From the NCBI GenBank assembly GCA_014376935.1, contig JACMQO010000074.1, forward strand, positions 1 through 57,057: a DNA stretch of 57,057 bases, in the 5' to 3' direction. The notes beneath the pieces were generated by a model. It was not told the DNA's origin. It ran no database searches and saw nothing but the letters and a program-made list of their open reading frames with translations. The position numbers and the translations under genes are program-made. The stretch comes from Bdellovibrio sp. (GTDB lineage: Bacteria > Bdellovibrionota > Bdellovibrionia > Bdellovibrionales > Bdellovibrionaceae). The first letter of the stretch is position 1. Each line of letters begins with the position of its first letter. Shown here in pieces: positions 13,116-17,324 of this stretch.

Positions 13116-13320
13116 AACCCGAAATGGGTCCAGTTGTCGTCTTACCTTTAAGAGCACGGAAGCTCTTCCCGACGAAAGAAAGGGTGGCTAGGATGGCTAC
13201 TCTGATCGTCACCCCCTTCAGGCAAGGATGCCGTAAGGGAACACGAAGTGAACCTAAAAGTTGCCTTCGAGTAAGCCTAAGAGTTTGACCTAAAAAGTTA
13301 AGCTTTTTCAAAAGGAGTTT
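13116..13320 (+). ncRNA. Structured leader RNA candidate
   Basis: This stretch folds on paper into consecutive hairpins: ACCC/GGGT (13117-13129); TCGTC/GACGA (13137-13175) enclosing AAGAGC/GCTCTT; GGGTG/CACCC (13182-13214); and CCCTT/AAGGG (13214-13239) enclosing GGCA/TGCC. It ends in a strong ribosome-binding site for the 34-codon gene at 13323. It matches none of the riboswitch consensus sequences I checked by eye (GEMM, TPP, SAM, FMN, cobalamin, glycine, lysine). It may be a regulatory leader or part of an RNA of about 400 bases ending at the terminator at 13513. Confidence 0.4.
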
Positions 13321-13322
13321 GA

Positions 13323-13427
13323 ATGGGCGAGTTGAATTCATTGTTCGTTTTTTGCGCGCTTTATTCGGGTGTTGTGAGCTTAACCCTCTGGTTTACAACA
13401 CGCCGGGTGGATGAAGCGAAAGATTAA
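13323..13427 (+). CDS. 34-residue single-pass membrane peptide
   Basis: AAAAGGAG lies just before the ATG, an excellent ribosome-binding site. The peptide has a short polar N-terminus (MGELNS), one hydrophobic span (LFVFCALYSGVVSLTLWF) and a charged tail (TTRRVDEAKD), typical of bacterial small membrane proteins. It stands alone between a structured leader and a terminator. I know no family for it. Confidence 0.55.
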   Translation: MGELNSLFVFCALYSGVVSLTLWFTTRRVDEAKD

Positions 13428-13482
13428 GTTAGTACCGAAAAATGTCTTTGGGTTTTTGGTGGTTCCCCACTGACATTCTTCA

Positions 13483-13513
13483 AGCGGAAGCGACGAGCTT
13501 CCGCTTTTTTTTT
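13483..13513 (+). terminator. Strong Rho-independent terminator
   Basis: AGCGGAAGC/GCTTCCGCT forms a 9-bp stem with loop GACGA, followed by nine T. A second hairpin (AATGTC/GACATT, 13441-13477) precedes it. It ends the leader plus small-peptide transcript. Confidence 0.9.
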
Positions 13514-13518
13514 GTCTT

Positions 13519-13731
13519 TTACCGATACACGCACGATGTACGCTTTCCAAAGATGTAAGCCCATTGCTGAAAGATATCTTGTTTAAAATCGCACTGAACC
13601 TCTTCCTGCGCAGTTTTTATCAGGGACCCAGTTATCAAGCCCCCATTGGCTACAGAAAACGCCATGGTTAGCGCCACGGCCATTAAACCCAGTAGGGTCA
13701 GCGCTACTTTAAAGTGTTTAGATAGTTTCAT
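13519..13731 (-). CDS. Small exported protein of the sigma-54 group
   Basis: The 70-residue product has a signal peptide or N-terminal anchor (VALTLLGLMAVALTMAFSVA) and a short exported part with two Cys (VQCDF and TSCVYR) that could pair. GGGGG precedes the ATG. Its promoter matches sigma-54 (13760-13775) and shares a TGTCGA site with the promoters of the two [FY]QNC paralogues. I recognise no family. Confidence 0.55.
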   Translation of the reverse strand: MKLSKHFKVALTLLGLMAVALTMAFSVANGGLITGSLIKTAQEEVQCDFKQDIFQQWAYIFGKRTSCVYR

Positions 13732-13759
13732 AATCCCCCTAGTTCTATAACTCTAGTAA

Positions 13760-13775
13760 AGCAATATAGGTGCTT
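13760..13775 (-). promoter_or_regulatory. Sigma-54 promoter, with TGTCGA site upstream
   Basis: Read leftward it is AAGCAC-N5-TTGCT, fitting the -24/-12 consensus TGGCAC-N5-TTGCW. The -12 element lies about 30 bases before the ATG at 13731. A TGTCGA site lies 42 bases further upstream (13817-13822), as at the two sister promoters. Confidence 0.55.
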
Positions 13776-14028
13776 ATGATGAAATCGAGTGAAAGACTCT
13801 TTAAAGCTTTGCCGGATGTCGACGAGTCGAAATTTACAAACAAGTTTGACGCGTGATTTTGAGAATCGACTACTAGATGAACATGGGTTTTTCGGCTTTT
13901 AGATTTAGAATGAGTCAAAAACTTAAAAAATGCGTTCAAAGCGGCTCGTTTTCATTCTGTTTTATCAAGAAAGTTTTAGAAAATAGACGATTCAATCAAC
14001 AGAAAAAAGTAAACTTTTTGAACACAGC

Positions 14029-14062
14029 AAAAAAAAGGAAGACGAATGTCTTCCTTTTTTTT
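14029..14062. terminator. Perfect 15-bp terminator hairpin, usable from both sides
   Basis: AAAAAAAAGGAAGAC pairs with GTCTTCCTTTTTTTT around loop GAAT. T runs flank it on both strands, so it can end the leftward gene at 14087 and any rightward transcript. Confidence 0.85.
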
Positions 14063-14086
14063 CGGATAGAATTTAGAAAAATTAAA

Positions 14087-14701
14087 TTAATCAAGACTAA
14101 CTAAATTTAAAACTTCGCCCTCTTGATTCGTTATTTTATCAATTTTTGAATTCACCAGTAATATTTGCCCGCTATGGCCATCAAGGGCCGTGACGTGTGA
14201 ATTCACCAAGATAATTTGCCCGATGATATTTTTAAGACTGGCGACATCTTGAAAGTCGCATAAGACCAGGGCGCGGTTACTTGAAAGGCTGTTGGCGGTG
14301 ATATTTGAAATCAGATCGATTCGTCCCGAAGCCGAATTTGATTTGACGGTCAATGATCCCGAAAGATCGCTGACTTCTTTGACGTAGTCAGTTTGAATTC
14401 CTAAGATGCCTTTAAAGTTTTGGCTAACTAAGCTTTGTGAAATTTCTAGTTTTGAATTCGCGCATAAAGCCAAAGCTTCCGCGTGTTTTGATTCGTCTTG
14501 GCCTAGCTTGCTAACAACATCGTCTAAGGTTCCCGTGGTTGAAACGGGCATCGTTGACACTACGCCGCCATCGCTACTGACTGAATTATCAACGGCCTTG
14601 GCACTTGAGCTGCTGCTGACCTTTGCGCAATTTTGATACGCAAAAAGTAAAACCAACCCAAACACACCAACAACTGTCTTTAATTTCTTTGAACCCATCA
14701 A
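14087..14701 (-). CDS. Exported [FY]QNC protein with LVNS repeats, paralogue 1
   Basis: The 204-residue protein has a hydrophobic signal ending LVLLFAYQNCAK, a Ser-rich linker, and a C-terminal domain with repeated strands (IIGQIILVNSHV, SGQILLVNSKI) like a small beta-helix. It aligns over its last 60 or so residues with the product of 16062-16907 (shared LC-[DN]-F, LVN[ST]-HV, LVNS, DKI, GE). The Cys after FAYQN would be the lipidated residue, though Y-Q-N is not a standard lipobox. It has a sigma-54 promoter at 14726-14741. Function unknown; a surface protein is likely. Confidence 0.7.
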   Translation of the reverse strand: MMGSKKLKTVVGVFGLVLLFAYQNCAKVSSSSSAKAVDNSVSSDGGVVSTMPVSTTGTLDDVVSKLGQDESKHAEALALCANSKLEISQSLVSQNFKGILGIQTDYVKEVSDLSGSLTVKSNSASGRIDLISNITANSLSSNRALVLCDFQDVASLKNIIGQIILVNSHVTALDGHSGQILLVNSKIDKITNQEGEVLNLVSLD

Positions 14702-15006
14702 CGACCTCGCTTAACTAGTCTATAAAGCAAGAGTCGTGCTTTGATGATAAAGCCTGTCTTTGGTCTTTTTAGAGCGGAAGGGCTGTCGATATTCTAAAAT
14801 GTCATTAAAAGTTCGACGAGCTATTCTGAGAAAAGCCTAAAAGATCGACGTGCGAAATAGGTTCTTTGCGCACCGATTCGGTTTTTTTCGAATGAAACCA
14901 TGGGGTAATTGCTTAAATTGTTTCATATTTCGTAGATTCTTTGGTCGATTTCAATTTTCAAAAATTTCAGTTGTAGAACTTATTAACGAAGCTTAAATAT
15001 CTTGGA
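14702..15006. other. Divergent promoter region between the leftward [FY]QNC gene and queA
   Basis: It holds the sigma-54 promoter and TGTCGA site of the leftward gene. I see no clear sigma-70 promoter for queA and no gene. Confidence 0.5.
14726..14741 (-). promoter_or_regulatory. Sigma-54 promoter, with TGTCGA site upstream
   Basis: Leftward sequence AAGCAC-N5-TTGCT fits the -24/-12 consensus. The -12 GC is about 25 bases before the start codon at 14701. TGTCGA at 14784-14789 is 43 bases upstream of the -24 element and may be an activator site. Confidence 0.6.
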
Positions 15007-16023
15007 ATGAAACGCTCTGATCTTGTTTATGATTATCCTGAATCTTTAATCGCTACCAGTCCGTCGCGCCCAACACGCGTGATGTGGGTTGAACAGGGGG
15101 CTGAACCCGTTGAACTGACGTTAAGCGAAGTGATTGAAAAAATTCCAGCAGGTGATGTTTTTGTTATTAATAATACCAAAGTGTTAAAACGCCGCGTTTT
15201 TTCAGAAAATGAAACTGAAATTTTATTTTTAGATCAGGTTTCAGAAACAGAAACGTCAAACACGTGGAGTGTTTTATTTCCTTCTAAAAAAATCGCGATC
15301 GGTCAGTCTTTAAAATTGCCAAATGGTTTTGAAATGAAACTGATTGAAAAGGGTCGTCCGCAAAAGGTAGAGGTCTTTCCGAAGATTACGCAAAAAGACT
15401 TCGACCTGATCGCCGAAATGCCTTTACCGCCGTACATTCAAAAAGCGCGCGGCGATCGACACAATACCAGTGAAGATTCAAAGTGGTATCAAACCGCGTG
15501 GGCTGAAAATGCCGGAAGCTTTGCGGCCCCGACGGCCAGTCTTCATTTTACCGCGGATGATATTTTAACGATGAAAAATAAAGGCGTGCAGGTTGTTGAA
15601 TTAACCCTGCACGTCGGGCTTGGAACATTTCTTCCGGTTTTAACCGAAGATCTAAATGATCACACGATGCACGAAGAAATTTACGCCATTTCAGAAAAAA
15701 ATTGGAAAACCATTCTAGAAGCAAAAGAAAATAGAAAAGGAATCTGGAGTTTAGGAACGACATCCACCCGCGTTCTAGAAAGTGTCGCCCGCACAGGAGT
15801 CTTAACGGGCTCGACCGGAATATTACTTCAAGAGGGTAGCGAATTTAAAATTGTGAACCGACTTTTAACGAATTTTCACCAACCCGAATCGACTTTGCTG
15901 GCTTTAGTTTCAGGTTTTGTTGGCTTAAATCGCGTCAAGCACTGCTACAGTTGGGCGGTTGAAAAGAAGTTTAAGCTGTTTAGTTACGGCGACTTAAGCG
16001 TTTGGTTTGGCTCTAGTCATTAA
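15007..16023 (+). CDS. queA: S-adenosylmethionine:tRNA ribosyltransferase-isomerase QueA
   Basis: The 338-residue protein, of normal family length, contains NNTKVLKRRV, AEMPLPPYI, GSFAAPTASLHFT, ELTLHVGLGTF, GTTSTRVLES and LLTNFHQPESTLLALV, the conserved QueA blocks. It transfers the ribosyl part of SAM to 7-aminomethyl-7-deazaguanine in tRNA to give epoxyqueuosine. tgt (18556) and queC (24663) of the same pathway lie in this window. It is flanked by the two [FY]QNC paralogues. Confidence 0.97.
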   Translation: MKRSDLVYDYPESLIATSPSRPTRVMWVEQGAEPVELTLSEVIEKIPAGDVFVINNTKVLKRRVFSENETEILFLDQVSETETSNTWSVLFPSKKIAIGQSLKLPNGFEMKLIEKGRPQKVEVFPKITQKDFDLIAEMPLPPYIQKARGDRHNTSEDSKWYQTAWAENAGSFAAPTASLHFTADDILTMKNKGVQVVELTLHVGLGTFLPVLTEDLNDHTMHEEIYAISEKNWKTILEAKENRKGIWSLGTTSTRVLESVARTGVLTGSTGILLQEGSEFKIVNRLLTNFHQPESTLLALVSGFVGLNRVKHCYSWAVEKKFKLFSYGDLSVWFGSSH

Positions 16024-16061
16024 TTCTAGAGCCTAGCGGTTTACAATCAGAATGCTGGCGA

Positions 16062-16907
16062 CTACTGAAGTGCCACAAGACTAATTAATTCTCCAACGTG
16101 GTTTCTAATTTTATCCACTTGTGAATTGACCAAAGTTAATTTTCCTTTGTGATCGGCTAACATTGTGACGTGTGTGTTCACTAATACGATGTGACCACTG
16201 ATGTTTGATATTTGTTTAACATCATTAAAATTACAAAGCACCACCGCTTTTTCTCCAGCTGAATCATTGGCTGAAATATTTGAAATCTGCATAACCGATG
16301 AATCTTTGTGAACGGCTCTTAAAAGAACTCCGCCTAAAATATTTGTGACGTGTTTGACTTGATCGGCATTAAATTGAAGGGAACCCGCAAAGTTTGAAAT
16401 ATCAACGATCGACATTGTATTTAGTCGAACTTTGTCGTCACATAAAGCTAAGGCTGCGGCCTCAATTGAACCCGGTTGGGCTGGTGTGACTGAAGGTGAT
16501 GAATTCGGTGTAGAGGTAACTGGCATCGGAGCTCCGGGTTGAGTTTCCATTCCAGGACCTACTTTAATAGGTTGTGCCGGTGTCGGCTGGTGATCTGCCG
16601 GACCTGAAATATCGGCTGGCACTTTGATAATCGCTACCGCTCCGCCGCCCGAAGTGTTTGGCGTGACGTTATTGCCAGATGAGGCATCTGGATTGGTGGC
16701 TGCAGGTATTGCTTCGACGGGTGGGTTTAAACTGATCGGTTGATCCGTTCCTAAACCTGATCCGGCGCCTATATCGGTTACGCCACTAGTTGCTAAACTA
16801 CTTGGGTCAACATTTTTGATATCAAGCTTACCGCAGTTTTGAAAAACGGTTACGGACACTAAGCTTAATCCTGTAAAAGCCAATTTATAAAGAGTTGAAC
16901 GTTTCAT
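16062..16907 (-). CDS. Exported [FY]QNC protein with LVNS repeats, paralogue 2
   Basis: The 281-residue protein has signal LVSVTVFQNCGK, then about 120 residues rich in Pro, Ser, Thr and Gly (a stalk-like linker), and a C-terminal domain with strand repeats ISGHIVLVNTHV and KGKLTLVNSQVDKI. The last 60 residues are clearly homologous to the product of 14087-14701, so the pair arose by duplication, and queA now sits between them. FQNC is not a standard lipobox, but recurs in four proteins here. GGGGG precedes the ATG and a sigma-54 promoter lies at 16939-16954. Likely a surface-exposed protein; role unknown. Confidence 0.7.
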   Translation of the reverse strand: MKRSTLYKLAFTGLSLVSVTVFQNCGKLDIKNVDPSSLATSGVTDIGAGSGLGTDQPISLNPPVEAIPAATNPDASSGNNVTPNTSGGGAVAIIKVPADISGPADHQPTPAQPIKVGPGMETQPGAPMPVTSTPNSSPSVTPAQPGSIEAAALALCDDKVRLNTMSIVDISNFAGSLQFNADQVKHVTNILGGVLLRAVHKDSSVMQISNISANDSAGEKAVVLCNFNDVKQISNISGHIVLVNTHVTMLADHKGKLTLVNSQVDKIRNHVGELISLVALQ

Positions 16908-16938
16908 TTAAATCCCCCGATTTATATAAAGCTATTAA

Positions 16939-16954
16939 AGCAAAGAGCGTGCTC
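16939..16954 (-). promoter_or_regulatory. Sigma-54 promoter, with TGTCGA site upstream
   Basis: Leftward sequence GAGCAC-N5-TTGCT fits the -24/-12 consensus. TGTCGA at 16996-17001 is 42 bases upstream. The start codon is at 16907, with GGGGG between. Confidence 0.6.
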
Positions 16955-17194
16955 AGGGTTTTTACGCGTCGTTTGGGCTTAGTTTAGTTCTTCGCTGTCG
17001 ATCTCTTTAGCCCTAGGTAGAAGTTAGACATTTATAAATTAAAGCGTCAGTTCTAAATCAATACGTTTTCATTGGTTTTCGAAACGAAGTGTCCTGTTTT
17101 ACCCTGATCTATTTGTTTTAAAGTCATTGGATGAAGTAAAATCGCGTAAATATTTCTAAGGTTGGTTGTTCGCAAAGATAAACCGATCATCGAT

Positions 17195-17223
17195 TTGACG
17201 ACTCAGTTTGCGACATCTTAATT
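17195..17223 (+). promoter_or_regulatory. Sigma-70-like promoter
   Basis: TTGACG (17195-17200), a 17-base spacer and TTAATT (17218-17223). It would give a leader of about 95 bases to the gene at 17325. Confidence 0.35.
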
Positions 17224-17324
17224 CATTTTATGTATATTTAGTTTCAATGAAGCGTCTGGCTGTTTTTGGCAGCTTCAGTTACATTGCATCCATTCTACAA
17301 ATTATCTTACCACCCGGAGACTTT

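Follow-up and report, generated by a model that had tools for sequence, protein, structure and literature searches.

Probable sigma-54 promoters, some with a shared upstream palindrome, precede a divergent lipoprotein family in Bdellovibrio and related genera

The 57,057-nucleotide stretch of Bdellovibrio sp. DNA analyzed here (contig JACMQO010000074.1 of assembly GCA_014376935.1; hereafter the window) encodes three leftward genes, each preceded by a sigma-54-like promoter site and, farther upstream, by a second conserved element. The genes and sites are arranged as follows.

13519..13731, minus strand: gene 1, a 70-residue protein with a signal-like N-terminus, exported-looking, without a family match
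13761..13775, minus strand: gene 1 sigma-54-like -24/-12 site, AAGCAC-CTATA-TTGC
13817..13851, minus strand: gene 1 upstream element, CGTCAAAC-N19-CGTCGACA, an imperfect palindrome that holds TGTCGA
14087..14698, minus strand: gene 2, a YQNC lipoprotein with a C-terminal repeat domain (the open reading frame (ORF) may start at TTG 14701)
14727..14741, minus strand: gene 2 sigma-54-like site, AAGCAC-GACTC-TTGC
14784..14818, minus strand: gene 2 upstream element, CGTCGAAC-N19-TATCGACA
16062..16907, minus strand: gene 3, an FQNC lipoprotein paralogous to gene 2 (41% identical in the part they share)
16940..16954, minus strand: gene 3 sigma-54-like site, GAGCAC-GCTCT-TTGC
16996..17030, minus strand: gene 3 upstream element, TGTCTAAC-N19-GATCGACA

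A preliminary description of this DNA had placed three -24/-12-like sites and three TGTCGA hexamers (13817, 14784, and 16996) upstream of these genes, and all six were found at those places; for gene 2, which it had ended at 14701, ATG 14698 is a likelier start than TTG 14701. On the gene strand the three promoters share the layout GTCNAACTT-N19-TCGACA-N42/43-(R)AGCAC-N5-TTGCTTTA, followed by a short leader, with spacers of 42, 43, and 42 bases between AGCAC and TCGACA. A further block, GTCNAACTT, absent from the preliminary description, begins precisely 28 bases ahead of TCGACA in each promoter (starts 13850, 14817, and 17029), and the TGTCGA of the preliminary description is one arm of the longer site GTCNAACTT-N19-TCGACA. 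The most fitting description of this longer site is an imperfect palindrome, TGTCGAAC-N19-GTTCGACA. Downstream, the match among the promoters extends to TTGCTTTA-(N)-TAG. The geometry of the three blocks is fixed in all three promoters, and each has, at the standard spacing, the G at -24 and the GC at -12 (GCAC-N5-TTGC). Searches for other promoter types yielded four sigma-70-like sites (TTGACA-N16-18-TATAAT) within 13500-17300 and 26 FliA-like matches (TTAAG-N16-CCGATA, at most two mismatches) in the window, where 18 were expected; none of either kind precedes genes 1-3.

The arrangement was then sought in the whole assembly (3,270,856 bases in 192 contigs) and in other genomes. The combined motif proposed in the preliminary description, searched as TCGACA-N34-46-AGCAC-N5-TTGC, occurs three times in the assembly, always at this locus, and its reversed control does not occur. 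In 58 other genomes it gave six matches, in five genomes, against one for the reversed control; these six were treated as chance because none of the five genomes has a match to the lipoprotein family (first profile, below). Exact copies of GTCNAACTT-N19-TCGACA in the assembly likewise number three, all at this locus, and at up to two mismatches the element has 42 matches against 40 for the control. When a sequence model built from these promoters was run on 59 genomes, it returned one clear additional match (G012, E 6.6e-5) and one plausible match (contig C154 of the assembly, E 0.016); six weaker matches (L094-L099) were judged to be chance, with gene neighbourhoods listed for five of the six. 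The G012 match, in another species of the genus, lies before a lipoprotein of the same F/YQNC family as genes 2 and 3 and includes GGGCACGCCACTTGCTTTAAT and a GTCGACCTT block. When an AAG-type element combined with RGCAC-N5-TTGC was searched in 99 genomes, four matches came from the window's assembly and two from G012; 11 single matches in other genomes were no more numerous than those of the reversed control. Under the strict motif, the regulon in the assembly consists of the three window genes, plus one weaker candidate on C154.

The promoter was next followed through the lipoprotein family. A first profile, built from four family members, had matches in 18 of 99 genomes. The first set comprised 18 members outside the window with placeable starts (17 from this profile plus one from G020; the G007 member was left out, its gene start lying off the contig), and was scored for sites that agree with the sigma-54 consensus at 7 or more of 10 positions and lie no more than 90 bases from the start; this criterion had been settled before the second set was looked at. 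Such a site precedes 17 of the 18 members, compared with 26 of 241 ORFs taken from around these genes. A second, wider profile had matches in 42 of 138 genomes and led to 31 further ORFs, 18 of which reach 7/10 by the score fixed beforehand. Lipoprotein-type starts were found in 25 of the 31; the other six (G125, G025c, G025d, G025e, G097c, and G067) were left out of the second set for want of one. Also left out were the matches in G041, G128, and G073 (C1:242175), with E values of 0.03-0.04, and extra rows of genes already counted. The start of the G079 member was corrected after the first scoring; it scores 3 on the first scale and 6.7 on the second.

The full set consists of 43 family members outside the window, from 20 genera of the order. 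With a weighted promoter score and a cut-off of 6.4, 39 of the 43 carry a sigma-54-like site, compared with 18 of 274 control ORFs whose starts were assigned by Shine-Dalgarno match, or 44 of 274 if each control is given its highest-scoring start. Seventeen of the 20 genera reach the cut-off with their median score. All six ORFs without a lipoprotein-type start score low, and counting them as misses gives 39/49 overall and 22/31 for the second set.

The upstream element recurs before part of the family. Of the ten exact matches that a search of 140 genomes gave outside the window's genome, two lie a short way ahead of family members, in G058 and G020; by our own rough estimate, about 2e-5 exact elements would be expected in 18 regions of 150 bases. 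In G058, GTCGAACTT and TCGACA stand 28 bases apart. The G020 member was discovered through the exact element and not through the profile. Its later profile match (E 8.9e-31) is not independent because that profile included it, and its homology to other members was also found by pairwise BLAST. With a looser element score of at least 12/14, 11 of the 43 members have the element, and in each of them 72-79 bases separate the outer arm from the -24 G; shuffled sequences would give 0.1. Two of 215 controls reach 12, none of them in the 72-79 zone; one control, with a score of 14, is probably the gene divergent from the G020 member, with which it has the intergenic region in common. The 11 carriers belong to six genera in three families (G012, G010; G075, G101, G079, G080, G078; G020; G058; G121; G136). 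Read as half-sites TGTCGAAC-N19-GTTCGACA, the G020 element matches at 15 of 16 positions, and the inner arm is perfect in G101, G078, and G012b.

The assembly also encodes RpoN and about ten candidate activators. An rpoN gene is present (PF04552, E 4.7e-65; 483 amino acids, with ARRTVAKYRD), and PF00158, the domain of enhancer-binding proteins (EBPs), has 15 matches, ten above 140 bits. All nine extracted PF00158 proteins contain G(A/S)FTGA.

The site geometry, its recurrence across genera before family members, and the rpoN and EBP genes are all read directly from DNA. From them we infer that the three promoters are sigma-54 (RpoN) promoters of a surface-lipoprotein regulon, opened by one EBP at the palindrome, a reading to which we assign a probability of about 0.82. 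RNA polymerase with RpoN would form a closed complex on (R)G(C/T)AC-N5-TTGC, which only an AAA+ EBP bound at TGTCGAAC-N19-GTTCGACA would open. In the window, the outer arm of this palindrome begins 78-79 bases before the -24 G, and its center would lie near -85 from the expected start. Transcription would begin about 12 bases downstream of the promoter site, leaving leaders of very roughly 15-25 nucleotides. The presumed core of the regulon is the fast-diverging F/YQNC lipoproteins with their repeat domain, together with a few small genes, gene 1 among them. The proposal in the preliminary description of sigma-54, a single activator site, and a small surface-protein regulon finds good support, most of it from relatives in other genomes. 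Its suggested tie to the predatory cycle gained no support from the tests run, there being no FliA-type attack-phase motif before the three genes.

Several observations weigh against this interpretation. All three window sites have A instead of G at -25 (AG, not the GG doublet, at -25/-24) and are for that reason slightly off the textbook sigma-54 consensus; G occupies -25 in 28 of 42 anchored family members outside the window. Alone, AGCAC-N5-TTGCT is at background in the assembly, with five matches against eight for the reversed pattern. Two of the five were rejected as promoters: the match on C92 is inside a coding region, and that on C187 lies upstream of the nearest leftward gene but several hundred bases away from it, and lacks the upstream element. 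The ten exact elements outside the window's genome compare with seven for the reversed control, which is near background in number. Four of the 43 members fall below 6.4 for the promoter and 32 below 12 for the element, and both the weighted promoter cut-off and the looser element score were set after the second set had been seen. Half-sites with a gap of 10 are enriched as well and, at threshold 11 with position unrestricted, are as frequent as those with the gap of 19. Finally, no EBP gene lies within the window, and the neighbourhoods of ten relatives' family members likewise hold no EBP gene, only proteins with receiver-domain similarity to EBPs.

Where no clear element precedes a member, the member may have drifted or may respond to a different activator. 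In G086, G139, and G025 (L193, L209, L201, and L218), where there is no palindrome, GAGACCTC or TGAGA-like blocks were noted by eye upstream of sigma-54-like sites, and these are perhaps the site of another activator.

That nearly all members have the promoter while most score below 12 for the element, and that EBP genes are missing from the window and from the vicinity of relatives' members, would also suit a real RpoN promoter whose palindrome binds a separate repressor or a non-EBP activator, the EBP acting elsewhere or from solution. We consider this unlikely, as paired inverted half-sites at a fixed distance of about 60 bases upstream of -24 fit an EBP site, and a repressor site would more often overlap the promoter. 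Less probable still is recent duplication, in which the promoters would be alike through the copying of one segment with its gene. Genes 2 and 3 are indeed paralogous, and immediately before the motif 24 of 40 bases are identical between the promoters of genes 1 and 2. However, gene 1 is not related to the other two, and the same arrangement recurs in other genera before proteins that are often just 20-45% identical. Outside the motif blocks, moreover, the gene 3 promoter is no more like the other two than shuffled sequence is; since it is at background while those of genes 1 and 2 keep residual similarity, copying can explain at most one of the three promoters. We give equally little credence to the upstream block as a promoter for an extracytoplasmic function (ECF) sigma factor, with GAACTT as -35, TCGACA as -10, and the TTGC part incidental. 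We take GTCGAACTT to resemble the -35 of RpoE-type promoters, but a gap of 19 is long for promoters of the ECF/RpoE type, the G020 element is a near-perfect palindrome (15/16), and across the family the -24/-12 part is better conserved than the upstream block.

The preferred reading, RpoN promoters opened by one EBP, can be compared with known systems. Sigma-54 promoters controlled by NtrC/PspF-type EBPs share the -24/-12 layout with G-N10-GC, the rpoN and EBP genes, and a palindromic site near -85, and differ in having GG, not AG, at -25/-24. We know of no EBP site that matches the palindrome TGTCGAAC-N19-GTTCGACA. As in Borrelia burgdorferi, where RpoN and an EBP, in the Rrp2-RpoN-RpoS pathway, end up controlling surface lipoproteins, the targets here would be lipoproteins; control in that organism is indirect through RpoS, whereas here the lipoprotein genes themselves would carry RpoN promoters. 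Within Bdellovibrio, the attack-phase promoters of FliA (sigma-28) resemble the proposed system in using an alternative sigma factor for many genes, including those of cell-surface proteins, and a FliA-type motif is reported for 92 of 140 mapped attack-phase promoters (PMC3627812). The FliA motif itself, TTAAG-N16-CCGATA, is what separates the two, with no match at two or fewer mismatches upstream of the three genes. The RpoN-like gene of B. bacteriovorus HD100 is reported to be bd0843 (PMC3464611; also PMC11209729), and Bd1238 of HD100 is described as an abundant sigma-54-regulator-like protein (PMC10627809). Bdellovibrio is not mentioned in the main text of a 2025 survey of sigma-54 regulons (PMC12316311), and a search of the open-licence literature brought up no account of the targets that RpoN has in Bdellovibrio or related bacteria.

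What is new here is the regulon and the lipoprotein family; the promoter kind is already known. If the reading is true, it provides concrete surface-protein targets for RpoN in the Bdellovibrio group and a binding site with which to trace the activator, and it brings to light a highly divergent lipoprotein family, found across the order, for which Pfam has no model. The analysis also illustrates how a motif at background in one genome becomes testable by tracking a gene family across genera. More tentatively, and somewhat against the odds, there may be an order-wide RpoN regulon with a dedicated activator at TGTCGAAC-N19-GTTCGACA, directing rapidly diversifying lipoproteins that are patchy among close relatives, as a surface-variation or prey-contact programme apart from the FliA attack-phase programme.

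Outside the lipobox, from which a surface location of the lipoproteins would follow, the F/YQNC family is very divergent, with pairwise identities mostly of about 20-48% and one close pair at 92%. As sole query, the gene 2 protein had matches in two of 59 genomes, its own and one other. The C-terminal domain contains G-x-(I/L)-x-(I/L)-x-N-S-like repeats, and AlphaFold2, given two sequences, predicted mostly short strands for that of gene 2 (mean predicted local distance difference test score, pLDDT, 65.6), which we read as a putative beta-solenoid. Searches of Pfam, NCBIfam, and the Protein Data Bank (PDB) with the proteins gave no credible match, and the predicted gene 2 domain had no match in the PDB at E 0.001. 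The opposite-strand gene between genes 2 and 3 (15007-16023) is well conserved, with homologues in 33 of 36 genomes.

The weaker candidate on C154 (L092 1801-1903) has a TGTCGAAC arm, 85 bases to AAGCAC-CACCT-TTGC, and stands before two tandem small KOW-domain-like proteins. On another contig, C135 (G000, L089; 3.4 kb), there is a second queA-type gene, 69% identical to that of the window. Given this second gene and the 192 contigs, some contigs, possibly including C154, may derive from a second organism. In G084 (L147 1501-1600), an exact element is followed 44 bases on by TGGCACGTATATTGG. There is no suitably placed gene, and a terminator-like hairpin lies downstream; sigma-54 possibly drives a small RNA here.

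Next to gene 1, the intergenic stretch 13148-13515 (plus strand) gave nothing at gathering score in Rfam, with a sub-threshold suhB/mmgR-like match at 13447-13520 (23.2 bits vs 41). Within it lie a FliA-like TTAAG-N16-CCGACG with two mismatches, a short ORF that begins at ATG 13323, and a GC-rich hairpin ahead of a T run; the stretch possibly encodes a small RNA.

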